Position numbers and translations under genes: made by a program
In this document: in pieces, positions 4,365 through 19,233 of the stretch
Layout: the number at the start of each line of letters is the position of its first letter
Numbering within the stretch: the first letter of the stretch is position 1
Notes under the pieces: generated by a model
The model's input: only the letters and a program-made list of their open reading frames with translations
Told to the model about the DNA's origin: nothing
Databases searched by the model: none
IMG/VR virus record: IMGVR_UViG_3300027969_000332
Location: 1 to 29,190 of that record
Source: a virus
Direction: 5' to 3' (one strand)
DNA: 29,190 nucleotides

Positions 4365-7300
4365 ATGGGAGCTTTTGATCCTGATGCATGGCTTGCTGAA
4401 AGAAGAGCTGCCAAAGAAAAACCGATTGATCTTGAAAAAGCAACTACTGAAAAAGCAACTACTGAAAAACCAGCTGAGCCAACTGCTTCTACCGGATTTG
4501 ATCCGGATGCTTGGCTTGCTAGTAGAAAAACTGCAAGAGGAGAGGCTGCGCCTGCGCCTACTACGGCTACTGAAAAGCCTGTTGAGCCACCACCGGCTAA
4601 AAAAGAAGCGCGTCCAGAAGACCAAAACTTTCTCCGTCAAGTTGCTGACGTTCCATTAAAAGTTGGTAGCGGTGTTGTAAGTGGTGTCCGTATGGTGGCA
4701 GATGCCATGGGCGCTGACTCGGCTGTATCTAAAAACTTACGTGGTGCAGAAGACTGGATTGCTGAGTTATATAGCGCGCAGTCCAAAAAAGACAGTAAGC
4801 GCATGGCTGAGATTATGAAAGCCGCTGAAGATCAAGGCGTGGTTGCAAACATCGTTGCTGCGCTTAACGCTTTTAAAGAAGCTCCGGTCGATCTAATTGC
4901 TCAAGGGCTTGGTACTGCTGCTCCGGGAATTTTGACTGGTATTGCCACATTTGTAGCAGGCGCTCCTGTTGCTTTAGCTACCGCTGCCTCCCTAGGTGTT
5001 GGTACTGTGATGGGTGCTGGTACTGTTAAGAGTTCTATTTATGACGCTACCAAACAAACTCTAGCAGAACAAAAAGATTTAAAACTTTCTCCAAAACAGA
5101 TTGAAGAGATTGCGGTAAAAGCACAAGAGTATGGTGGCAAGAACACCGACATGATTCTGGGGGGCATGATACTTGGAGCTCTCGGTTCTTACTCTGGTGC
5201 TGAGCCAATTATTGCCCGTGAGTTGGGTAAAAAAATCATAGGTAAAGCAGTTGCAGAAGAATCTAAAGCTGTGGCTGGCGCTGCAGCAAAACAAACTGCT
5301 ACTGATGCCGCTATTAAAGCCTCGCAACGGGAAGCAACTGAACTAGCTGCTAAACGCGGTATGTTGAAGAACGCTTCGGTTGCTGGTGGTAAAGAATTCT
5401 TAACTGAGTTTGGTCAAGGCGGTCAAGAACAGTTAGCACAGAACATTGCATTGCAACGTGAGGGCTTTGATGTCCCCACTATGCGCGGTGTAGTGGGTCA
5501 AGGTACGTTGGAAGGTCTTGCTGGTTTAGGCATGGGTGCGCCAGCGGGCGCTATTGAAGCAGCTAGAGCTAAGCGTGAACTAGCTGAAGAAAAAGTTAAG
5601 ACAGAAGGCGAAGATCCTTCTCTTAAGAATGTATTAACTACCGGCAACCTAAACAGAACTAAAGCCGCAATCAGCGCTACGGCTGACGACATAAACACTT
5701 TGGTGCCTGCTACAGATAAAGCAGGTAAAGCGCTAACGGATATTGATCCTGATACGCAGACGGCAAAAACAAAGGCCGATACAGAAGCTGCTGCTGTTGC
5801 AGCGCAGACCAAAATATCTCTTGATGAAGCAACTGTAAAAGCAAATGAGATCATTGCTAAAGCTGACGCTGGAGAGAAATTAAATTTAAAGAACGATATT
5901 CGCCCAGTTGCTAAAGCGCTAGGTGTAAAACTACCGTTTGCAATTTCTAGTGTTGGTGCGATCAAACTTATCAGAGACCAGCTTGGAGAACAAGGAACAC
6001 CAGATGCGACAGCTACAACAGTTAAACCTGCAGAACCTATCAAACCAGCAGATCGAAGTGGTGCTGAGTTGGCTGTTCCATCAAAAGACGTCACCCAGAC
6101 TGGAGACGGAGGAGCTGCCGGACCTATCGCCGGTGGAGTGGTATCTGATGGAACAACTACTGGACCAACTACTGTTGGAAAAGCTGCACAGTCCACTGCA
6201 CTAGATGATTTAAAAGCTAAGAAGGCACAGTTAACAGAACAACGTCTCAAACTGTTTGGTGGCAGTGATAGAAAGCCTAGCCCTAAGTCTAAAAAAGGCG
6301 TGGCGCTTGCCGCACTCAACGCGCAGACTCTTGAGATAGATAACCAAATACAGAAGCTAGAAGCTGAGACTGGTACTACAGAAGTTGCGCAACCTAAAAA
6401 TGCTGCGCAACAGGATATGGATTACCTAAACGATTTGTTAGGTAATGATGGTTTACCCGCCCGTATACGCCGCAGTGACGCACAAATTGAAGTAGACCAA
6501 AAACTTGATGCGCTTGCTAAGCGGTATGGTTTGAGCCGCAGTCTTGATGAGACTGCTAAAGAGTTTGGTGCACGCATTAAAGACGCGATTGAGTTTGAAA
6601 ACATGCGTACAGACAAGCCTTTGTCTGCCGTGTCAGATCAAGACATTGCCAAGCAGACTTTGCGCGAAGACACCTCATACATCCCGCCTGATCTTCAGAT
6701 TGAAGAATATGAGAGACAACGCCAAAAGTTCAACGAGTCTATTGAAAGAGACCCAGAGACAGGTGAACTACAGTCAGATGAACTTCCTGCATATAAGGAA
6801 CTCTCTGCCGATGACCGCCGTGTGTACTTCCAAGAAGGTATTTCACGCCCCGGCGCTGGCTCGAATACAGAACATGCGCAAGCAGCACAAAGACTCTCCG
6901 ACTACCGCAGCGGTGTAAAAGAAGAAGCCGAGCCTTATCAAATAAAAGATAAGAAGACTGGTGAACTTCTATTCAATCCAGATGGTACTCCAATGATGGC
7001 GAAGACTACTTTGCCCGGAGAAACCCGCGCAAGAGAGTCATACAACCGTGAACGCGATTCATTTGGGCGTAAGACAGGTCTATCTTATTCTTTCCCTGCT
7101 TGGAATATTCTGTCAGACGAAAGCAAAAAACTTTTTACGTCGATTTATAAGGCTGATAGTGTTCTTTCACAAGACATGGCGTTTCGTCTAGTAAAGAAAC
7201 AAATACAAAAAGAACTGTCAGAGGAAGCTAGCGGTAATCGTACTCGAAATGAGCAGTCTTGGGTATCGTCTCAAGTTCAACAGGCTATGGAGACGAGTAA

Positions 7301-10300
7301 GACTAAGGGACAAACTACTGAGGCGCTCCCAGCAAATGTAGTTGAAATGCTTTTTAAGGGCGATATCAAAGGTGTATTGGACTACATCTATGAGAATGGT
7401 AATGGTCGCAAACTAAAGACTGTCAAACAGTCGGTTATGACCGACATCTTTATAAATAAACTAGGTCGTAAACAAGCTGGATATAGAAGGCAAAGAGTCA
7501 ATATCCGTGACTCCATTGCTATGGGTGTGTTCCGTCTGGTAGCTGGGCGTCTTGGCGCTATTGAAAACCTACAAGTAAACGTGGTGTATGACCCCGGCAT
7601 GGTCTATGGTGATCTTGCGCGATACAACGCCAACACAAATACTGTTTACGTTGGTCCTAACGGTTTGACCGAAGGCACTATTTTGCATGAATTAGTGCAT
7701 GCTGCTACTGTCAAGATCATCCATCAATTCTTCACTGATCCTTCTAAACTGCCAGCGCACATGCGCAAAGCTGTTGAGCAATTAATTCGCGTCGCAGCTG
7801 CTGCACAAAAACGTCTTGGCGGTATTGAAAAATACAAAGAAGCGTTTGACAATATTTATGAGTTTATTGCTTATGCAATGACCGACCCTGATTTTCAAGC
7901 TGATCTGGCTAACCAGCAGGTTGAGAGCCTTGCTACTGTCACCTCTAGGGATGAAGAACAATCTGAAGCACTCCGTTTAGAGCGTGAGAGGGCTGGCGGA
8001 GAAAAGCAGTACGACTCATTTATGGACAACTTGTTCAACTCGTTTACTGGCGCGTTGGCATACATGTACAAGTTGTTTACGCCAAAGTCTAAGTCTGAAA
8101 AGGTTTATCTCTATACAGAGCAAACAGGCTTTCCAAAAGTACGCACAGAAAAAGAAATTAAAGAAGGTGAAGAGTTAGAAAAGGCAGCAAAGGGGCCCGG
8201 AAAAGAGATGACTGCCTCGGAGATGGAAGCGTTGTCTCCCGGTAAGTTGTTTGACAGAATCAATGAAAAGCCAGAGGGCGAACCCAAGTTCAAGTCAACG
8301 ATTCAATACTCGCATGTCAACGGCATTACCAATTTGAAGAAAGCTTTTTTGCGTGAGCCCGGCTTCAAGGGTAATCTTCTTTTAGAAGCTGCCGAGATGT
8401 TCCAGTTAATCCTTGCTGCACCAGAAGGTGGCATAGCGCAGTTGGCAGGTAAGGGGAGCATCGGTTCAGAACTTGCCGCTAAAGATCAAAATAAACCACC
8501 AGCAGCGCCGCGTGAAGGTGGCGGCATCTATAAGAAAGAGATACGTGATAGTTACGCGTTATCTGTACTTGAAAAGTCAGCCTCTAGAACTAAAGCGTTT
8601 TTAAACCGAGTCTTCACTAACAAAGGCTGGAGAAAAACATTTACAGAAAACATTGACCGTACGTTACCTTTGCGGTTACGTGAGCAACAATTCAGTAGGG
8701 CTAAAAAGCTAGAGCGTGATCCGACTAAATATTTTAACAATATTGTTGAGCACATGGATAACGCGTCTGGTAAGGCGCGTCAGTATTTAGTTCAATACAT
8801 ATACGAACCGATGAAGGAACTGCAAGATAGCATCGCAGAGCTAGCTAAGATAACTAAGCAGGACATAGAGAAAGATATTCTGCCTACACTGCATATGCTG
8901 GCTGAAGCATTTGGTGAGCCTGAGAAGCGCCACATGAAATGGTTACTTAGCGTACCACTTAGCCTAACTAAAAATCTAATGCACAACGGCAAGATGATAA
9001 GCGCTGCTCAGCGTCGTATTGACTTGATGGGTGATCCACGCACTGGTAAACCCGGTATTGTTCATAAGATTGAATTGACTGAAGCTCAACAGAAACAAGT
9101 ACGCGCTGAGTTAGAAGCGTTGGCAAAAGGGCATGTTGACCCATTAGGTGATAGCCCACGTATTAAAAACGAAAAGATCCGTGAACGTGCGCTGACTAAG
9201 CGTCAGAAGAAGAATCAACTTGGTGTGATGGACATCAACGAAGATAGCTCTACCTATAACGTATTGGGTATTAACAAAGAAGAAGTTGAACTGCGTTTAC
9301 AGCAGTTTAAGGATATGGATCCGGCTGAAAAAGAAGCTATCAATAAAGTAATGGCTTCTATCCGTAAGCTTACAAAGAGTACTTCTGATCTTAATAAGAT
9401 TGGTAACTACTGGTCGTACCCTGTGACTAACATTGTGGGTATCTACGACTACCAGAACTACATGCCGTTCAAAGGTTTGGCAAAGCACTCCATCGTGGAT
9501 GAGATGATTGAGCCAGATGGTGGACGCACTAAGACAAGTCGTATCCTTATAGATGAAGAGAAGGCAGCGCATGGTCGTTTCACCGTGTCTGATAACCCAA
9601 TCCTACAGACAATGAGTGATGCTGCCCGTGCCGCTGGTCGTGCGGGCCGTGCTGAGTTTATGCAGGCTGTACTGAATGCATCTAACCCAGACAAGAAAAA
9701 GAATCCAAACGGTACAGGCATTATTGATGCCGATGTAGTTGAGCGCGTAGAGTTTGCAGACAAAGAAACAACCGACCTATCAAAATACAAAGGCAAGTCA
9801 CACATATTTGTGCATAGCCCTGACGGTAGTCTTAGCATCATCAAGGTTAATGAGCCTGACATCCTCAAAGCGTTACGCTACCAGTACAAAGACAACGGGT
9901 TCTTGATGGACTTAGCTGCTCAACTTACTAGCAAAGTTGGGTCTATGCACACTAGATGGAACATGAACTTTGCAGCTAAGAACTTTGTTAGCGATACGTT
10001 GCAGAACGCTTGGAACATAGGCGCTGGAACAGTTGGTCCATTGAGCTCGCTCAAGTATTTAATAGATACCGTAAGTACCACTGTTACTAAGAACGGTCTT
10101 GGTAAGTCCATGGAAGTCGCTATGCTCTATGAGAATGGCGATGATGCGAGCAACCTCAGACTACGTGAAATGGCAGAAAAAGATGAGTTTGTTGCCGCCC
10201 TACTCAAGATGCTGAAGTTTGGTGGTAAGACAGCCTATATCCAGAGCATGTCTCTTAAATCCAGCTTAAATGAGTTGGAAAAAGGAGTGACTAAAAATGG

Positions 10301-11795
10301 TGTGACTAAGAGCCTTGAGGCAGTAGGTAAAGTCGCTGACGTCTGGGGTAGTATGTTTGAATTTACAAGCCGCGCTGCTGCTTTCCAACTATTCGAGCGT
10401 GAGTACCTTAAGCGAGAGATAGAAGCCGGGACATCTAATAAAAGAGAACCCGGGGAAGAAATGTCTCCAGCGGAATATGCTGCCGCTGTACGTGCCGCTG
10501 CTGATACAAAGAACTTAACTAATTTTGAGTTAGTGGGCTCGGCTGATTCAGCAACATGGATGTCTACATTTTTCATGTTCTTTAAAGCGTCAGCAGTTAG
10601 TTCATTACGTACTATGGAATCACTCTCCCCAATGTTCCGTAGGATGGAGTGGGAAGAGAAACTACTGCCCCCAGCTATCCGCGATGACCAGACAGCTCTA
10701 AATAACTGGAGAAAAGAATACAAGAATCTGCAAACTAATGCACAAATTATGTTTGGTTCGTTGGCTGCTTTTGGTTACGCTATGTACATCATGTCAATGA
10801 TGATGGCTCCCGAAGATGAGTGGAGGCGTAACGCTACTAAGACTGACAACATGGATCAATGGATTCGTTATGCGCGTTTCCATCTACCTCCTAGCATCCT
10901 TAAATACATGGGTCTACGTGAAGATACTGTGTTGCAGTCGCCTTGGGGCTTTGGTCTAGGCGCTATCGCATCTATGGGCGCGCAGATAGCTGGCATGGTT
11001 CATGGTGAGACTTCGTTGAAGAAGGGCTTAGCAAATATTGCTGCTGGGTCGTTGGCTGATGCGTTCTTCCCATTGCCTGTCTCTAAGATGCCTTGGTCAG
11101 AAATGCCGGGTTATGCTATTGCAGACACTATGACACCTTCGCTTGTACGTCCTTACTTCGAGTACTTATTCAACATTGACGGTGTGGGTCGCGCTATTAA
11201 CAGCACTTCAAACAGACGTCTAGGTGATGCTTATACAGGAAGTGATCGCGTGCCGCAGGTTTATAAAGACATATCTGACAAAATGTTCCGTGTCTCTAAT
11301 GGTGATTTTAGTTGGCCTCCTAACACAATACATTTCTTTGCTAATAGCTATATTGACGGTATTGCGCGTTTGGGTGAAGTTGCTTACTCATTAGTAGGCG
11401 TTAGTAAAGAAGAGAAGACATTCAACCCTAAGACTGACTTACCTTTGTTTGGCTCGTTCTTTGGCGCTAAATCTAACGTTGATGCAAGAGAGTACAGCGC
11501 GATGGAGTCACAGATCAAGAAGATGGATAAGACTATCTATACTCTTGAACAACAAGATCCTGCTGGCGCGCTTCAGTACGAAGCAAAAAATCCGTTCAAT
11601 GTTACGCTTGTGGAAATGTACAAGGCTCGCCAAGGTGAACTTAATAAACTACGACAGAAGGCTACTGAGATCCGTACAGATAGAACGCTTCAACCTAGCT
11701 CTAAAGAGGCGATGCTAAAGATTATTACCTTTGAGCAAAACATCATCAAGCATGAGATGGTGGAAGACTTCAAAGCATACGGATTGAAACCCTAA
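4365..11795 (+). CDS. Giant polyvalent virion protein: zincin metallopeptidase motif and LPD38-like C-terminus
   Basis: 2476 residues. The N-terminus carries two copies of FDPDAWLA (residues 4-11 and 45-52) in a disordered Glu/Lys/Thr linker. Gly/Ala-rich hydrophobic stretches follow (about 190-235 and 263-275), possibly membrane-inserting, then a long Ala/Lys/Thr linker. A zinc metallopeptidase motif HELVH is at 1108-1112, with Glu1166 in YEFIAYAMTDPDF as candidate third ligand. Residues about 1866-2200 (NMNFAAKNFVSDTLQNAWN onward, hydrophobic 2128-2152) match the style of LPD38, the large polyvalent-protein-associated domain 38. Polyvalent proteins are described as multi-domain effectors of phages and conjugative elements thought to enter the cell with the DNA. 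The N-terminal repeats, the peptidase and the terminal position in the virion cluster fit an ejected protein; its substrate is unknown. The stop overlaps the stop of the convergent gene. Confidence 0.8.
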   Translation: MGAFDPDAWLAERRAAKEKPIDLEKATTEKATTEKPAEPTASTGFDPDAWLASRKTARGEAAPAPTTATEKPVEPPPAKKEARPEDQNFLRQVADVPLKVGSGVVSGVRMVADAMGADSAVSKNLRGAEDWIAELYSAQSKKDSKRMAEIMKAAEDQGVVANIVAALNAFKEAPVDLIAQGLGTAAPGILTGIATFVAGAPVALATAASLGVGTVMGAGTVKSSIYDATKQTLAEQKDLKLSPKQIEEIAVKAQEYGGKNTDMILGGMILGALGSYSGAEPIIARELGKKIIGKAVAEESKAVAGAAAKQTATDAAIKASQREATELAAKRGMLKNASVAGGKEFLTEFGQGGQEQLAQNIALQREGFDVPTMRGVVGQGTLEGLAGLGMGAPAGAIEAARAKRELAEEKVKTEGEDPSLKNVLTTGNLNRTKAAISATADDINTLVPATDKAGKALTDIDPDTQTAKTKADTEAAAVAAQTKISLDEATVKANEIIAKADAGEKLNLKNDIRPVAKALGVKLPFAISSVGAIKLIRDQLGEQGTPDATATTVKPAEPIKPADRSGAELAVPSKDVTQTGDGGAAGPIAGGVVSDGTTTGPTTVGKAAQSTALDDLKAKKAQLTEQRLKLFGGSDRKPSPKSKKGVALAALNAQTLEIDNQIQKLEAETGTTEVAQPKNAAQQDMDYLNDLLGNDGLPARIRRSDAQIEVDQKLDALAKRYGLSRSLDETAKEFGARIKDAIEFENMRTDKPLSAVSDQDIAKQTLREDTSYIPPDLQIEEYERQRQKFNESIERDPETGELQSDELPAYKELSADDRRVYFQEGISRPGAGSNTEHAQAAQRLSDYRSGVKEEAEPYQIKDKKTGELLFNPDGTPMMAKTTLPGETRARESYNRERDSFGRKTGLSYSFPAWNILSDESKKLFTSIYKADSVLSQDMAFRLVKKQIQKELSEEASGNRTRNEQSWVSSQVQQAMETSKTKGQTTEALPANVVEMLFKGDIKGVLDYIYENGNGRKLKTVKQSVMTDIFINKLGRKQAGYRRQRVNIRDSIAMGVFRLVAGRLGAIENLQVNVVYDPGMVYGDLARYNANTNTVYVGPNGLTEGTILHELVHAATVKIIHQFFTDPSKLPAHMRKAVEQLIRVAAAAQKRLGGIEKYKEAFDNIYEFIAYAMTDPDFQADLANQQVESLATVTSRDEEQSEALRLERERAGGEKQYDSFMDNLFNSFTGALAYMYKLFTPKSKSEKVYLYTEQTGFPKVRTEKEIKEGEELEKAAKGPGKEMTASEMEALSPGKLFDRINEKPEGEPKFKSTIQYSHVNGITNLKKAFLREPGFKGNLLLEAAEMFQLILAAPEGGIAQLAGKGSIGSELAAKDQNKPPAAPREGGGIYKKEIRDSYALSVLEKSASRTKAFLNRVFTNKGWRKTFTENIDRTLPLRLREQQFSRAKKLERDPTKYFNNIVEHMDNASGKARQYLVQYIYEPMKELQDSIAELAKITKQDIEKDILPTLHMLAEAFGEPEKRHMKWLLSVPLSLTKNLMHNGKMISAAQRRIDLMGDPRTGKPGIVHKIELTEAQQKQVRAELEALAKGHVDPLGDSPRIKNEKIRERALTKRQKKNQLGVMDINEDSSTYNVLGINKEEVELRLQQFKDMDPAEKEAINKVMASIRKLTKSTSDLNKIGNYWSYPVTNIVGIYDYQNYMPFKGLAKHSIVDEMIEPDGGRTKTSRILIDEEKAAHGRFTVSDNPILQTMSDAARAAGRAGRAEFMQAVLNASNPDKKKNPNGTGIIDADVVERVEFADKETTDLSKYKGKSHIFVHSPDGSLSIIKVNEPDILKALRYQYKDNGFLMDLAAQLTSKVGSMHTRWNMNFAAKNFVSDTLQNAWNIGAGTVGPLSSLKYLIDTVSTTVTKNGLGKSMEVAMLYENGDDASNLRLREMAEKDEFVAALLKMLKFGGKTAYIQSMSLKSSLNELEKGVTKNGVTKSLEAVGKVADVWGSMFEFTSRAAAFQLFEREYLKREIEAGTSNKREPGEEMSPAEYAAAVRAAADTKNLTNFELVGSADSATWMSTFFMFFKASAVSSLRTMESLSPMFRRMEWEEKLLPPAIRDDQTALNNWRKEYKNLQTNAQIMFGSLAAFGYAMYIMSMMMAPEDEWRRNATKTDNMDQWIRYARFHLPPSILKYMGLREDTVLQSPWGFGLGAIASMGAQIAGMVHGETSLKKGLANIAAGSLADAFFPLPVSKMPWSEMPGYAIADTMTPSLVRPYFEYLFNIDGVGRAINSTSNRRLGDAYTGSDRVPQVYKDISDKMFRVSNGDFSWPPNTIHFFANSYIDGIARLGEVAYSLVGVSKEEKTFNPKTDLPLFGSFFGAKSNVDAREYSAMESQIKKMDKTIYTLEQQDPAGALQYEAKNPFNVTLVEMYKARQGELNKLRQKATEIRTDRTLQPSSKEAMLKIITFEQNIIKHEMVEDFKAYGLKP
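4434..4463 (+). repeat. Two tandem 15-base repeats in the N-terminal linker
   Basis: Two perfect in-frame copies of GAAAAAGCAACTACT followed by a six-base partial copy encode the repeated EKATT. They lie between the two FDPDAWLA motifs of the giant protein. Replication slippage in a disordered linker explains them. Confidence 0.85.
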
Positions 11796-16119: not shown

Positions 16120-16536
16120 TTAAGAGGGTTTACGCACGACTATCGTGAATTCCCTCATCACATTCACACCGGGGGGCAAGCCATCAGCTTTGCGATCGGC
16201 AATGAATTCTTTGAAGTTGGCTTGAGCAATTCTTGCTTCCAACAACTCTGGCATTTCGTTATCCATAACAAACTTTCTGAACGCTGTGCCGTCGCTGACG
16301 GTGTAACGCTCACTCAGTTTACGCATAACGGTGCCGTAATCTGTCCTAATGCTTTTGGCATTCGACTCGTTGCAATGCGTCATGAACGTCTGTGCTAGAA
16401 CATCTAACTCGGCTTTGAGTTCTTTGTCTTTCACTGCCCACTCCGCTTCGATTCTTTCACGTTCATTTCTAATTGTCAAGTATACCTTGACTAATTCATC
16501 CAATTTTGTATCGACTACTTCTTCTATTTCGGTCAT
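16120..16536 (-). CDS. Gam-like protein, possible DNA-end protection
   Basis: 138 residues. The N-terminal 65 residues are helical and highly charged (VYLTIRNERERIEAEWAV, KDKELKAELDVLAQTFM) and likely form an antiparallel coiled coil. A strand follows with IRTDYGTVMRK, then a helix containing FRKFVMDNEMPELLEARIAQ, and LPPGVNVMREFTIVVRKP. This order (coiled coil, then GTV, then LPGV and a closing strand) is the layout of the Mu Gam / host-nuclease-inhibitor family, which binds dsDNA ends and protects them from exonuclease. I judge the match by eye only. The start ATG follows AGGAG and overlaps the helicase stop as ATGA, so the two are probably cotranslated. A plain coiled-coil protein of unknown role is the alternative. 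Confidence 0.5.
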   Translation of the reverse strand: MTEIEEVVDTKLDELVKVYLTIRNERERIEAEWAVKDKELKAELDVLAQTFMTHCNESNAKSIRTDYGTVMRKLSERYTVSDGTAFRKFVMDNEMPELLEARIAQANFKEFIADRKADGLPPGVNVMREFTIVVRKPS

Positions 16537-18089
16537 ATTCCTAACTCCTGTTTGTACAACTCAACCAAGCTTTCATGCATGTTGACCTTGCCTCGTAGCA
16601 TTTGATAGATCTTTCTTTCAGCCTCTGACCCTTGCAGGTGTACGACTGTCATACTGTTCTTCTGCCCGACACGATCAATACGCGCTATGCATTGCAGATA
16701 GGTCTCCACAGACATGACAGGCGACCAAAACACTACTGTGTCAGCGGCTGTCAACGTCACCCCGTGCGATGCGGCTTGCGGTTGAATAATTAAGACTCGT
16801 GGATTTGTTTGCGTCTGAAACCGATTGATGATCTCAGAGCGTTCCCTTGCTGGGACAGCGCCATTTATTATTTCATTGACTACTCCTTGTTGATTTAAAA
16901 ACTTACTCACTAACAAAATGGTGTGCGTGTAAGGCACGAAAATTATGACCTTGTGCTCTGTCTCGTCTAGCACTTCCATAAGTGTGTTGAGACGCGGGGA
17001 CACATCAAACTCGACAACCTCTTTTGTGTCGGTATACATAGCACCGCCAGAGATCTGCAACAACTTGCTCAACATCGCAGCCGCGTTTACAGCGCTGATC
17101 TGCTCACCAGCCGCAGTGATTAGCATCTCCCTCTTGAGCGCCTTGTAGTATTTCTCTACCTGAGAGGTAAGGGGGACTTCACGGGTCTGATACACCAAGT
17201 CTGGTAGGTCTAGACAGTCAGCCTTCTCAAAGCGAATAGCGGGTTGCAGGGCGTTATAAACATCTGTCTTGCTAGTGGTCTTCGGAACCCACTTGAAGCG
17301 GGTCGCTTGGTGCATGACCTTATCGCGCCACGCCCCGAAGAATCTAGGCACGCCAGCGGGGTTAACCAACTTGGCGAGACCAAAGGCATCGAGCGGGGAT
17401 TGAGATGCAGGTGTGCCCGTCATCATCCATAGACGGGTTTCGGGGGTAATCAATTTAGCCAATGTTTTCCAGCGTTTCGTAGATACTGTTTTATATGCAT
17501 TCGCCTCATCAATAACAATTAGGTCAAACCCTGCTTTACTTATTTCATCTTCAACTGTGGCTACACCATCAAAATTAATGATGACGAACTCGTACTGTCC
17601 GCTAATAACCTTCTTACGCTTGTTGCTGTCTCCATGAGCTACTGCCACGGTTCGATGCATAGCGGTCTTGAAGATGTCGGCCTGCCACGCTGAATACATG
17701 ATCGAGAGAGGACAGATGACTAACACCCGTTTGATGAGCCCCTTGTTCATCATGTAATCAGCCGCCCAAATTGCGGAGGAGGTCTTGCCTGTGCCCGCTT
17801 CATTGAAGCAAAAGCACCGGTCGCGTAGAACTAGGTATGAGGCAGTAACTCTCTGGTGGACGAAAGGCGTATAGAGTCCGGGCCAGTCGTACTCTTTGTC
17901 CATTGGGCTAGGAGCATCACCATACATACGAACAAGTCGTTGCATCTCGGGTAAACCCCAATAGACTAGTACACTTGCAAAAATGCCGTCATCTTTGAGG
18001 ACTTCGACTCTGTCCATGTATCCAAGGATCAACTGCAAATCCTTAGACGGAATAACCATGTGGACTGCTGTGTCCTGTACAACTTTCAT
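16533..18089 (-). CDS. SNF2-like superfamily 2 DNA helicase/translocase
   Basis: 518 residues. Motifs in order: motif I NEAGTGKTSSA (96-106), motif Ia VLVICPLSIMYSAW, motif II IVIDEANAYK (191-200), motif III MMTGTPASQ (222-230), motif IV VIIFVPYTHT, motif V SHGVTLTAADTVVFW and motif VI QCIARIDRVGQ. The order and the RIDRVGQ signature are those of SNF2-type ATPases, which translocate on dsDNA and can remodel forks or displace proteins. Motif II is DEAN, where SNF2 proteins usually have DEAH. It is shorter than cellular SNF2 proteins and lacks chromatin domains. The ATG at 18089 follows AAAGGA. The gene begins the leftward segment after the 170-base noncoding region and is coupled to the Gam-like gene, fitting a role in recombination-dependent replication. 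Confidence 0.85.
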   Translation of the reverse strand: MKVVQDTAVHMVIPSKDLQLILGYMDRVEVLKDDGIFASVLVYWGLPEMQRLVRMYGDAPSPMDKEYDWPGLYTPFVHQRVTASYLVLRDRCFCFNEAGTGKTSSAIWAADYMMNKGLIKRVLVICPLSIMYSAWQADIFKTAMHRTVAVAHGDSNKRKKVISGQYEFVIINFDGVATVEDEISKAGFDLIVIDEANAYKTVSTKRWKTLAKLITPETRLWMMTGTPASQSPLDAFGLAKLVNPAGVPRFFGAWRDKVMHQATRFKWVPKTTSKTDVYNALQPAIRFEKADCLDLPDLVYQTREVPLTSQVEKYYKALKREMLITAAGEQISAVNAAAMLSKLLQISGGAMYTDTKEVVEFDVSPRLNTLMEVLDETEHKVIIFVPYTHTILLVSKFLNQQGVVNEIINGAVPARERSEIINRFQTQTNPRVLIIQPQAASHGVTLTAADTVVFWSPVMSVETYLQCIARIDRVGQKNSMTVVHLQGSEAERKIYQMLRGKVNMHESLVELYKQELGI

Positions 18090-18113
18090 TACTATCCTTT
18101 ACTGAATTAAACG

Positions 18114-18132
18114 TAGCCCCTTACGGGGGCTA
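18114..18132 (-). other. GC-rich hairpin upstream of the helicase gene
   Basis: A perfect 7-bp stem (TAGCCCC / GGGGCTA) with a 5-base loop lies 24 bases before the helicase start. On the - strand it is followed by CGTTTAATT, too weak a T run for a good terminator. The stem and loop share the core CCTTACGG (18119-18126) with a second hairpin at 18243-18250. Confidence 0.5.
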
Positions 18133-18194
18133 GTCGGTCAAGCCTGTCACGCTCAGGGAGATTGAACAATCTAAAAGCGCCTCTCGACTGACTA
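18131..18194. other. Nested inverted repeats in the noncoding region
   Basis: Outer arms TAGTCGGTC (18131-18139) and GACTGACTA (18186-18194) pair over 9 bp with one G-U in + sense. Inside lie CGCT/AGCG (18150-18153 with 18176-18179) and the palindrome AGATTGAACAATCT (18159-18172). The innermost palindrome could be an operator for a dimeric protein; the full nest could fold as RNA. The flanking 18090-18259 stretch holds no open gene. Confidence 0.45.
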
Positions 18195-18199
18195 CGGTT

Positions 18200-18224
18200 A
18201 AAAGGGGTAAAAATCATAAACCCC
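18200..18224 (-). terminator. Weak terminator-like hairpin after the HNH-like gene
   Basis: On the - strand GGGGT and ACCCC (stem 18220-18224 with 18204-18208) enclose an 11-base AT-rich loop and are followed by TTTT (18203-18200). It comes 36 bases after the stop of the HNH-like gene, a reasonable place for the operon to end. The stem is short. Confidence 0.4.
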
Positions 18225-18226
18225 GC

Positions 18227-18255
18227 CACTGCCCACTCATAGCCTTACGGCAGTG
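18227..18255. other. Inverted repeat after the HNH-like gene
   Basis: CACTGCC (18227-18233) and GGCAGTG (18249-18255) form a perfect 7-bp stem around a 15-base loop; a smaller alternative hairpin GCC-TTAC-GGC sits within it. In - sense that inner loop is GTAA, a GNRA tetraloop. Role unknown. Confidence 0.4.
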
Positions 18256-18259
18256 ACTA

Positions 18260-18571
18260 TTACTTCTTGCGTTCTTTCTTGCTTGTCTCTGACACAAGGT
18301 TGCCTTGCGAGTCACGCTTGAATGATCGGTTTTTAGCCGCTGATTGGATGCGTAACCCATTCTTGTTTGAACCGCCTTTGTCAAGGGCAACCACATGCGC
18401 TACGTCTTTGCCTTCGCGTCTGTCCGCTTTGCCGTTGCCGTTAGCGTCTGTTCCTGTCTTGTCAATAGAGCGACGTCCGCGCTGGCGTTCCATGCGACGC
18501 TCGTGTTCACCACGGGCTTTCTGTTGCTCATACTCTTTAGCATAGGGTCTAGGTTTGTTTACGTAGGGCAT
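18260..18571 (-). CDS. HNH-like endonuclease or basic nucleic-acid-binding protein
   Basis: 103 residues from ATG 18571, which follows AGAAGGTGA; the alternative GTG at 18577 overlaps the upstream stop as GTGA. The N-terminal half is very basic (EHERRMERQRGRRSIDK). The C-terminal half has KDVAHVVALDKGG, then NGLRIQSAAKNRSFKR, which resembles the small phage HNH proteins whose consensus is D-x-D-H, an Asn-rich turn, then NLR and NRS. Only part of the classic His-Asn-His set is visible: His in DVAH, Asn in NKNGLR and Asn in NRS. The second histidine is missing, so cleavage activity is uncertain. It follows the Cas4-like nuclease directly. A DNA-packaging HNH is less likely here, away from terminase genes. 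Confidence 0.6.
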   Translation of the reverse strand: MPYVNKPRPYAKEYEQQKARGEHERRMERQRGRRSIDKTGTDANGNGKADRREGKDVAHVVALDKGGSNKNGLRIQSAAKNRSFKRDSQGNLVSETSKKERKK

Positions 18572-18573
18572 AT

Positions 18574-19233
18574 TCACCTTCTAACTTTGTGAAATTCGCA
18601 GGTGGTGACGGGACACCAACCGCATAGGGGGGTTCTGTTTGGATTCCAAACACCCGTCTCGAATGAGGTTTCTAACTGTATCAGAGCGGGTACAAACGCG
18701 CCCCATAGATCGTCAATCTGACTGCGTGTGTATTCTTCATCCATGAAGCTGTTATGCACTATGAATAGAAGCCCAGCCTTGATGCGTTTGACCTCGGGGA
18801 AGTGAGCAAAGGTCATGAGCGCCATCAGCTTTAATTGTTTTGGGTCAGGGTACTTGTTGCTACCTGTCTTGTAGTCAACTAGGTAGGCTGTCTCACCGTC
18901 CACGATCAGCAAGTCAACGATGCCACGCACATAGCGTTCGGGGTCATCAAAATCACAGGCTGTGCCGTCACGGTACAAGCCCATCTCATACTCAGGATAG
19001 CGCATGCCGTCGATCTCTAAGAGCGAGTCCAAGATAGGTTGGAAGTGCTGATAGTTCTTAGCGAGTGGTCGGCCTTGACCAACATAATCTTCGCAAGCCT
19101 TATGCACCTCAGTGCCGTAGGTCATCTGCTGTGTGACCTTCTTTTCATAGCGCTTCAGTACCTTGGTTTCGTGGTACTGCCGAGGGCAGTTGACATACTC
19201 TTTGAGAGCGGAGAACGACCAAGTAAAACTCAT
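18574..19233 (-). CDS. Cas4/RecB-like PD-(D/E)XK exonuclease with Fe-S cysteines
   Basis: 219 residues. Nuclease motifs: GTEVH (40-44), which supplies the His; Asp107 in GIVDLLI; DYKTG (120-124), with the catalytic Asp and Lys; and PKQLKLMALM (Gln133). Cys16 in NCPRQY together with Cys204, Cys207 and Cys212 near the C-terminus gives the four-cysteine pattern that holds a 4Fe-4S cluster in Cas4 and AddB-type nucleases. The length is typical of Cas4-like phage proteins. No cas1, cas2 or CRISPR array is present, so a role in phage recombination or DNA-end processing is more likely than spacer acquisition. The ATG overlaps the stop of the 67-residue protein as ATGA; the gene lies between small unknown genes and the HNH-like gene. 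Confidence 0.85.
   Translation of the reverse strand: MSFTWSFSALKEYVNCPRQYHETKVLKRYEKKVTQQMTYGTEVHKACEDYVGQGRPLAKNYQHFQPILDSLLEIDGMRYPEYEMGLYRDGTACDFDDPERYVRGIVDLLIVDGETAYLVDYKTGSNKYPDPKQLKLMALMTFAHFPEVKRIKAGLLFIVHNSFMDEEYTRSQIDDLWGAFVPALIQLETSFETGVWNPNRTPLCGWCPVTTCEFHKVRR

Follow-up and report, generated by a model that had tools for sequence, protein, structure and literature searches.

A conserved pseudoknotted RNA family shared by aquatic phages and some freshwater and marine bacteria, with a possible role in translation

Small RNAs with anti-Shine-Dalgarno loops occur in other bacteria, for example AbcR. Their exposed C/U-rich loop, complementary to ribosome-binding sites, is also a feature of the RNA described here, which differs from them in having a pseudoknotted P1 scaffold and in being carried by phages. 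Several structured RNA motifs are also relevant for the comparison. The Polynucleobacter-1 RNA (RF01718) is reported from Burkholderiales and from fresh-water and estuary metagenomes (PMC2864571). The HRC-28-1 motif of Polynucleobacter, for which yggX is the reported site, is like the new RNA in being betaproteobacterial and multi-stem, with a last stem that is apparently an intrinsic terminator, and in lying 3' of a gene with a neighbour that faces oppositely; the same source places the icd-II and carA motifs of Polynucleobacter upstream of icd and carA (PMC8632094). The abiF RNA motif (RF03085) is 36-37 nt long and associated with abiF; like the new RNA it is structured, is borne by phages and bacteria and adjoins a protein gene (PMC12373285).

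The RNA family described here is new in the sense that it has no match in Rfam 15 and that searches of the open-access literature did not find it. These searches, which leave most subscription papers outside, showed no description of this RNA, and a text search of PMC11109978 gave no mention of Polynucleobacter, Methylophil-, Burkholder-, phage or HTCC2181. At the Rfam 15 gathering cut-off there are no matches in the window, which is the whole 29,190-base stretch analyzed (an IMG/VR virus record), nor in the related loci L109, L098, L026, L142, L014, L341, L343, L346, L336 and L351, and the sole match in L190 and L174 is a tRNA in L190; the E-value mode gave nothing relevant. Polynucleobacter-1 is similar to the new RNA in its Burkholderiales and aquatic source, but its covariance model has no match with E up to 5 in L343, L346 and L341, and none in window positions 18000-18350. 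Identity with HRC-28-1 is rejected, as the broader of the two covariance models made here, R2, has no match with E up to 10 in any of 25 yggX loci from the genus of Polynucleobacter kasalickyi (yggX being located by motif in 24 of them), and the sequences downstream of yggX are plainly different by look from the new RNA. Both Polynucleobacter motifs tested, Polynucleobacter-1 and HRC-28-1, therefore differ from it. The abiF RNA is likewise rejected, since none of the scanned sources matches RF03085 at its gathering cut-off; self-cleaving ribozymes and the known riboswitch classes were considered as well and have no Rfam match. Downstream of yggX, L392-L404 have a different recurrent element, with a CCCGATGG..CCCCGTCGGG hairpin and a U-run at its end, which sits at the site reported for HRC-28-1 in PMC8632094.

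The RNA lies in a leftward gene block that encodes a PolA-type DNA polymerase, a PD-(D/E)XK exonuclease and a 105-aa HNH-like protein, followed by the gap at 18090-18259, an SNF2 helicase (Pfam SNF2-rel_dom, 1.5e-21; phrog_62) and a DUF927 primase/helicase-like protein. The gap has no ORF of at least 50 aa of its own, and a 60-aa frame at 18214-18396 overlaps the 105-aa gene. The features are as follows.

18090-18259: gap of exactly 170 nt, bounded by the stop of the 105-aa ORF on one side and by the 518-aa SNF2 helicase start on the other
18260-18577, minus strand: gene of the basic, HNH-like 105-aa protein ('sm'), the usual upstream neighbor of the RNA in phages, from alignment
16533-18089, minus strand: SNF2-family helicase gene, 518 aa, the usual downstream neighbor
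18095-18100, minus strand: AAAGGA, which probably serves as the ribosome-binding site for the helicase, from sequence
18114-18259, minus strand: whole RNA, P1 to P4, transcribed leftward and starting immediately past the stop codon that ends the 105-aa ORF
18249-18257 (5' arm) and 18225-18233 (3' arm), minus strand: hairpin P1 with loop GUAAGGCUAUGAGUG, from covariation
18238-18242, minus strand: 5' strand of the pseudoknot, CUAUG, in the P1 loop, from covariation
18204-18224, minus strand: hairpin P2, GGGGU...ACCCC, from sequence, outside the modeled structure
18192-18196, minus strand: 3' strand of the pseudoknot, CGUAG, after a conserved AAC, from alignment, pair letters and counts
18134-18191, minus strand: long hairpin P3, interrupted by an internal loop (ACAGG side) and carrying AGATTGTTCAATCT in its apical part, from covariation (helices 3 and 4)
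18157-18161, minus strand: UCUCC, anti-Shine-Dalgarno-like piece of the P3 tip, from sequence and family enrichment
18114-18132, minus strand: hairpin P4, UAGCCCC-CGUAA-GGGGCUA, terminator-like in many bacterial copies, with a weak U tail here

The four inverted repeats that a first-pass annotation had pointed out in 18090-18259 are all present and correspond to hairpins of one minus-strand RNA. The repeat 18114-18132 is P4, the nested set 18131-18194 is P3 plus flanks, 18204-18224 is P2 and 18227-18255 is P1 (18225-18257), and the core common to two hairpins, CCTTACGG, is found in P1 and P4. The pseudoknot between 18238-18242 and 18192-18196 is absent from that annotation; in the window it has one extra base on each strand, and these are mutually complementary. 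A general repeat finder reported none of the four repeats within 17900-18450. The narrower covariance model, R1, matches 18132-18260 with 82.5 bits (E 1.4e-21), the window row being part of its training set, and P4 was appended to the RNA extent from the sequence, outside this match. When folded as a single sequence, the region is only modestly above chance, with z = -2.15 on the minus strand (8/200 shuffles) and z = -1.75 on the plus strand (11/200 shuffles); it is the covariation in relatives that places it far beyond chance.

For the covariation analysis, at least 80 viral loci each were fetched with the helicase and with the 105-aa protein, and 83 distinct intergenic regions, including the window, were cut out among the matches listed. 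A motif pattern on the P1-loop side kept 66 of these, the window included, and 17 were dropped; alignment A2 consists of 40 of 61 distinct trimmed rows. In A2, 91.3% of the 929 cells are paired, double (compensatory) changes are seen in 22 of the 24 pairs, and the covariation score is 0.653, compared with 0.262 in shuffles, of which 0/500 reach it. Sliding the partner by 1-3 columns lowers the pairing to 27-43%, and because the structure was read by eye from the same sequences, A2 favors it over the slid versions. All 6 modeled pairs of P1 have double changes in the 40 sequences. In the pseudoknot (helix 2), 95.6% of the cells are paired, and two of its pairs change together without exception in the 40 sequences (C-G 32/U-A 8 and A-U 21/G-C 19), while the third pair is unpaired in five sequences and the fourth in two. 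The pseudoknot is in neither search model, R1 nor R2.

The 13 bacterial copies, when aligned to the model, give the same picture: 86.3% of 299 cells are paired and the covariation score is 0.686, against 0.226 in shuffles (0/500), with 71.8% pairing in the P1 stem. In the eight bacterial copies that were found without a pattern, the pseudoknot is fully paired in seven and has one mismatch in the other. Of the five covariation measures, "pairs with a change on both sides" is reached by 5/500 shuffles in alignment A3 and by 3/500 in the 13 bacterial copies, and the remaining four by 0/500 in both. A3 comprises chosen matches only (98/98 sources), and A3, A5, A6 and A7 were aligned to the model and so lean towards its structure. 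The patterns used to retrieve loci L161-L363 and L417-L588 specify the pseudoknot letters in part or completely, so the A3 counts for the pseudoknot are biased; A2 and the eight bacterial copies are free of this bias. The hairpins P1 and P3, and the pseudoknot in which the P1 loop pairs with the strand preceding P3, are established computationally, and the suggestion that the region could be a small structured RNA is borne out by the strongly positive covariation in its relatives. With compensatory changes beyond those in shuffles and an RNA-sense strand, as discussed below, the element is almost certainly a conserved structured RNA.

The layout shared on the coding strand starts with the P1 stem, whose loop reads GUNAGG-YRUG-AGUG, and the variable hairpin P2, and it ends with AAC, a short strand complementary to the P1 loop, the long hairpin P3 and the hairpin P4. 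The letters GUNAGG, AGUG and AAC are mostly conserved. P2 and P4 are recurrent hairpins of changing sequence, P2 also varying in length among relatives, and P3 is much shortened in L031 and L140. Some side features recur within groups. The P2 loop word TGCAGTTGC is found in several phage lineages (L083, L098, L113 and relatives) and could be another pairing or protein-binding site. An extra hairpin lies just upstream of P1 in L251, L308 and L316, and its arms are changed yet complementary within this group (GTTAGTC/GACTAAC versus GTTAGCC/GGCTAAC). The P4 loop word GGAAAGAC, common to the bacterial loci L382, L385, L379 and L386 and to the phage group L098/L031, could pair with the CUUUC of some P3 tips, which would be a possible loop-loop contact.

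The same first-pass annotation had also considered that the region could be a replication origin or could contain an operator. A DNA-level element of this kind, whether replication origin, operator array or cruciform, would suit inverted repeats that adjoin replication genes, but G-U pairs outnumber A-C combinations (GU+UG 242, AC+CA 27 of 2167 cells in A3). Pairing is thus kept via G-U and not via A-C, and the folded molecule is the minus-strand RNA and not a DNA cruciform; the constraint acts on the RNA of one strand, which also speaks against the operator. In addition, the maximum of the cumulative GC skew is not at 18.1 kb but near 11-12 kb, at the flip in gene direction, and the RNA is also found on bacterial chromosomes in other surroundings. 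The replication origin is therefore rejected on the G-U test and the skew, and a DNA-level element of any of these kinds is extremely improbable. Next to the switch of gene direction there is a 2476-aa ORF on the plus strand (4365-11795).

Matches to R1 and R2 were accepted at E<=1e-3. Among viral sequences these were found in 28 of 80 pattern-fetched loci (among the matches listed), in 23 of 80 sources with the training rows included, in 68 of 93 further viral sources (among the matches listed), and in 53 of 61 and 64 of 76 sources of two later scans, the viral contigs being partly common to the several sets. One viral pattern scan gave at least 120 stretches, of which 120 were all scanned with the model; in later pattern scans the model was run on 61 of 96 and on 76 of at most 100 loci (the new ones among the matches listed). 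L276 and L303 are just above 1e-3 under R1. INPHARED phages have no DNA match to 16533-19233, only chance-level 24-nt matches to two RNA variants (E 5-6) and no match to the 105-aa protein, so no named phage was found with this RNA.

In bacterial genomes, one pattern scan gave 30 loci, and five of these match at E<=1e-3, namely Methylophilales HTCC2181, Polynucleobacter kasalickyi, two betaproteobacterial MAGs and one MAG labeled Actinomycetota. Genome searches with R2 found the RNA in 4 of 39 genomes of the genus of P. kasalickyi, to which a nearly identical sample adds one (5/40 in total), and in 4 of 31 of the genus of HTCC2181. Wider samples gave at least 2/249, 3/150, 3/81 (two weak) and 1/369, and these counts are lower bounds, since few candidates are scored for each genome once a search covers more than 40; the weak bacterial matches L373 and L374 were left out of the membership. 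Given the chromosomal copies in such bacteria, freshwater and marine Burkholderiales are by inference the likely host group.

The RNA is also dispensable, because 17 of the 83 intergenic regions fail the motif pattern (12 of them being 67-88 nt long; one of the 17, L025, nonetheless matches the model) and because in 27 further loci the helicase and 105-aa genes abut or nearly so, which leaves no room for the RNA. Upstream of the same helicase, seven intergenic regions of 67-87 nt without the RNA motif (L149, L152, L156, L146, L157, L010 and L024) have a promoter-like sequence of the TTGAC type.

Of 93 unique RNAs (the truncated L283 being left out), 18 have a promoter-like site of the TTGAC type at P1 or a little upstream of it; 200 mononucleotide shuffles give a mean of 1.3 and a maximum of 6. 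The spacing places the start in the 5' arm of P1 in 13 of the 18 and about 8-20 nt before P1 in the other five. At the other end of the RNA, most of the 13 bacterial copies keep P4 as a hairpin while its sequence changes, and a U-run follows it in seven of the 13 by our reading. As for the earlier idea of a promoter/terminator region, neither part is clear in the window itself, where a consensus scan of 17900-18700 gave no sigma70-type promoter and where P4 is called terminator-like with a weak tail, CGTTTAATTC.

The tip of P3 is characterized by particular words. CTCC occurs within P3 in 49 of 71 clusters (dinucleotide-shuffle mean 15.8, maximum 25), CTCCTT in 22 (mean 2.3, maximum 7) and CCTTTC in 19 (mean 2.5, maximum 7). 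When considering the 31 clusters unlike the training set, CCTTTC is found in 13 (mean 1.2, maximum 5) and TCTCC in nine (mean 2.8, maximum 7), while CTCC is weakly raised (15/31; mean 8.1, maximum 15) and CTCCTT hardly so (3; mean 1.0, maximum 5); the complementary word GGAG is not enriched in these clusters (2 versus 2.4). The CTCC sites are central in P3 and less paired than the rest of its interior (unpaired 0.74 versus 0.50; 43/49). UCUCC and CCUUUC of the P3 tip are parts of CUCCUUUC, the anti-Shine-Dalgarno tail, within which AAAGGAG has its complement, and the 16S 3' end reads CACCTCCTTTCTAGAG, including CUCCUUUC, in two of three loci from bacterial genomes, the third not being 16S. The exposed anti-Shine-Dalgarno-like C/U loop is a trend of the family and is not seen in every member; in the window, UCUCC lies partly within a small apical stem and the P3 tip is without the CCUUUC part.

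The pairing of this loop with the ribosome-binding site of its own helicase gene was assessed by permutation with 44 cluster representatives of 58 rows. The P3 loop of these representatives does not prefer its own site (3991 of 5000 permutations are as low, and 4793 of 5000 for the wider P3 loop), and the mean own pairing of -6.57 kcal/mol is no better than the -6.79 kcal/mol of shuffled loops. This is against simple masking in cis, and sequestration of the helicase ribosome-binding site by its own RNA is left unsupported.

The neighboring genes were compared in two sets. In the second set, 77 unique RNAs fetched by RNA pattern only and outside the model building, the RNA is within 60 nt of the end of the HNH-like gene in 72, and the helicase starts within 120 nt of the RNA in 57, the cases with a far helicase being at least partly alignment artefacts (L432 was checked). 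The first set is mixed and has 93 unique RNAs; in it, the HNH-like gene is near in 60 and the helicase in 61, and neither gene is in the fetched stretch in 17. According to the translations, the RNA follows a small membrane-protein-like ORF and precedes the terminase in L190, L304 and L322, follows unrelated ORFs in L251, L289 and L303, follows a VRR-NUC-like ORF in L275 and precedes a nuclease-like ORF in L174. In bacteria the translations show the RNA after VIT-domain/sortase, MerR/VIT, small-plus-membrane pair or SEL1-type genes. The next gene faces the RNA in L380, L385, L387 and the L346/L336 MAGs (the latter being the L380 site), a same-strand gene lies further on in L379, L381-L384, L388 and L351, and the upstream gene of L380 is divergent. 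Neighbor genes are inconsistent across loci, and the RNA is independent of any one of them. In L384 and L388, of the HTCC2181 genus, some 90 nt separate the RNA from a downstream exonuclease gene that is YqaJ-like as judged from its sequence. The 105-aa protein, of whose group one of 10 members has a Pfam HNH match (E 0.0073), is far better conserved than its neighbors: relative to L107, it has 93% amino-acid identity and 78% DNA identity, against 64% for the helicase, and this suggests strong purifying selection rather than recent transfer.

The RNA family is firm, and for its function we infer a stand-alone RNA that acts on other messages. The RNA may be transcribed from a promoter of its own or be processed out of a co-transcript, and it may end at P4 where P4 is a terminator; in the window it would travel between the HNH-like gene and the helicase within their transcript. 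The pseudoknotted 5' half would be a scaffold or a protein-binding part, and the P3 tip would base-pair with the Shine-Dalgarno sequences of other mRNAs, tuning their translation in trans. We give this full reading, a new family of structured small RNAs of about 150 nt that act on translation in trans, a probability of roughly 0.45. A bolder version is quite doubtful, according to which a mobile RNA displays a copy of the 16S rRNA tail (CUCCUUUC) on the pseudoknotted scaffold, with which phages and some hosts would broadly re-tune translation; the displayed copy would compete with ribosomes for ribosome-binding sites or bind ribosomal factors that recognize the tail.

A riboswitch or protein-binding leader that regulates in cis the helicase gene and those following it would agree with the complex pseudoknotted fold, with the position of the RNA at most 120 nt 5' of the helicase in 57/77 and 61/93 RNAs, and with the order of promoter-like site, RNA and gene in 18/93. 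It is somewhat unlikely when considering the 17/93 RNAs with neither gene in the fetched stretch (for example the terminase region of L190/L304, L174, L275, L251 and L289), the bacterial loci in which the next gene faces the RNA, and the absence of own-site pairing, although the bacterial loci with a same-strand gene further on are a concession to it. The promoter-like site that in these 18/93 lies after the upstream gene and before the RNA, the divergent upstream gene of L380 and a structure that far exceeds the needs of end formation make it unlikely that the RNA is a structured 3' element of the upstream gene, in phages mostly the HNH-like gene, serving stability, end formation or a 3'-UTR-derived RNA. 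This would otherwise fit the start of the RNA within 60 nt of the end of that gene in 72/77 and 60/93, its position soon after varied genes in bacteria and the U-run in 7/13 bacterial copies by our reading.

The tight adjacency in phages (72/77) and the strong purifying selection on the 105-aa protein (93% amino-acid versus 78% DNA identity to L107) could also point to a ribonucleoprotein, in which the RNA would guide or stabilize the small HNH-like nuclease. By eye, no such gene lies beside the RNA in the bacterial stretches compared or in L190, L251, L289 and L303, many loci have the protein and no room for the RNA, and no variable guide-like segment is seen, so that a ribonucleoprotein is very unlikely.

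The small RNA preferred here belongs to a family that is unmatched in Rfam 15 and recurs in many aquatic phage contigs, and phages share it with some freshwater and marine bacteria (Polynucleobacter and the HTCC2181 group), which have it on their chromosomes. The chromosomal copies permit tests in cultured bacteria without a phage isolate. If it is true that the tip pairs with ribosome-binding sites, the RNA would be a simple and testable route by which phages steer translation by RNA.
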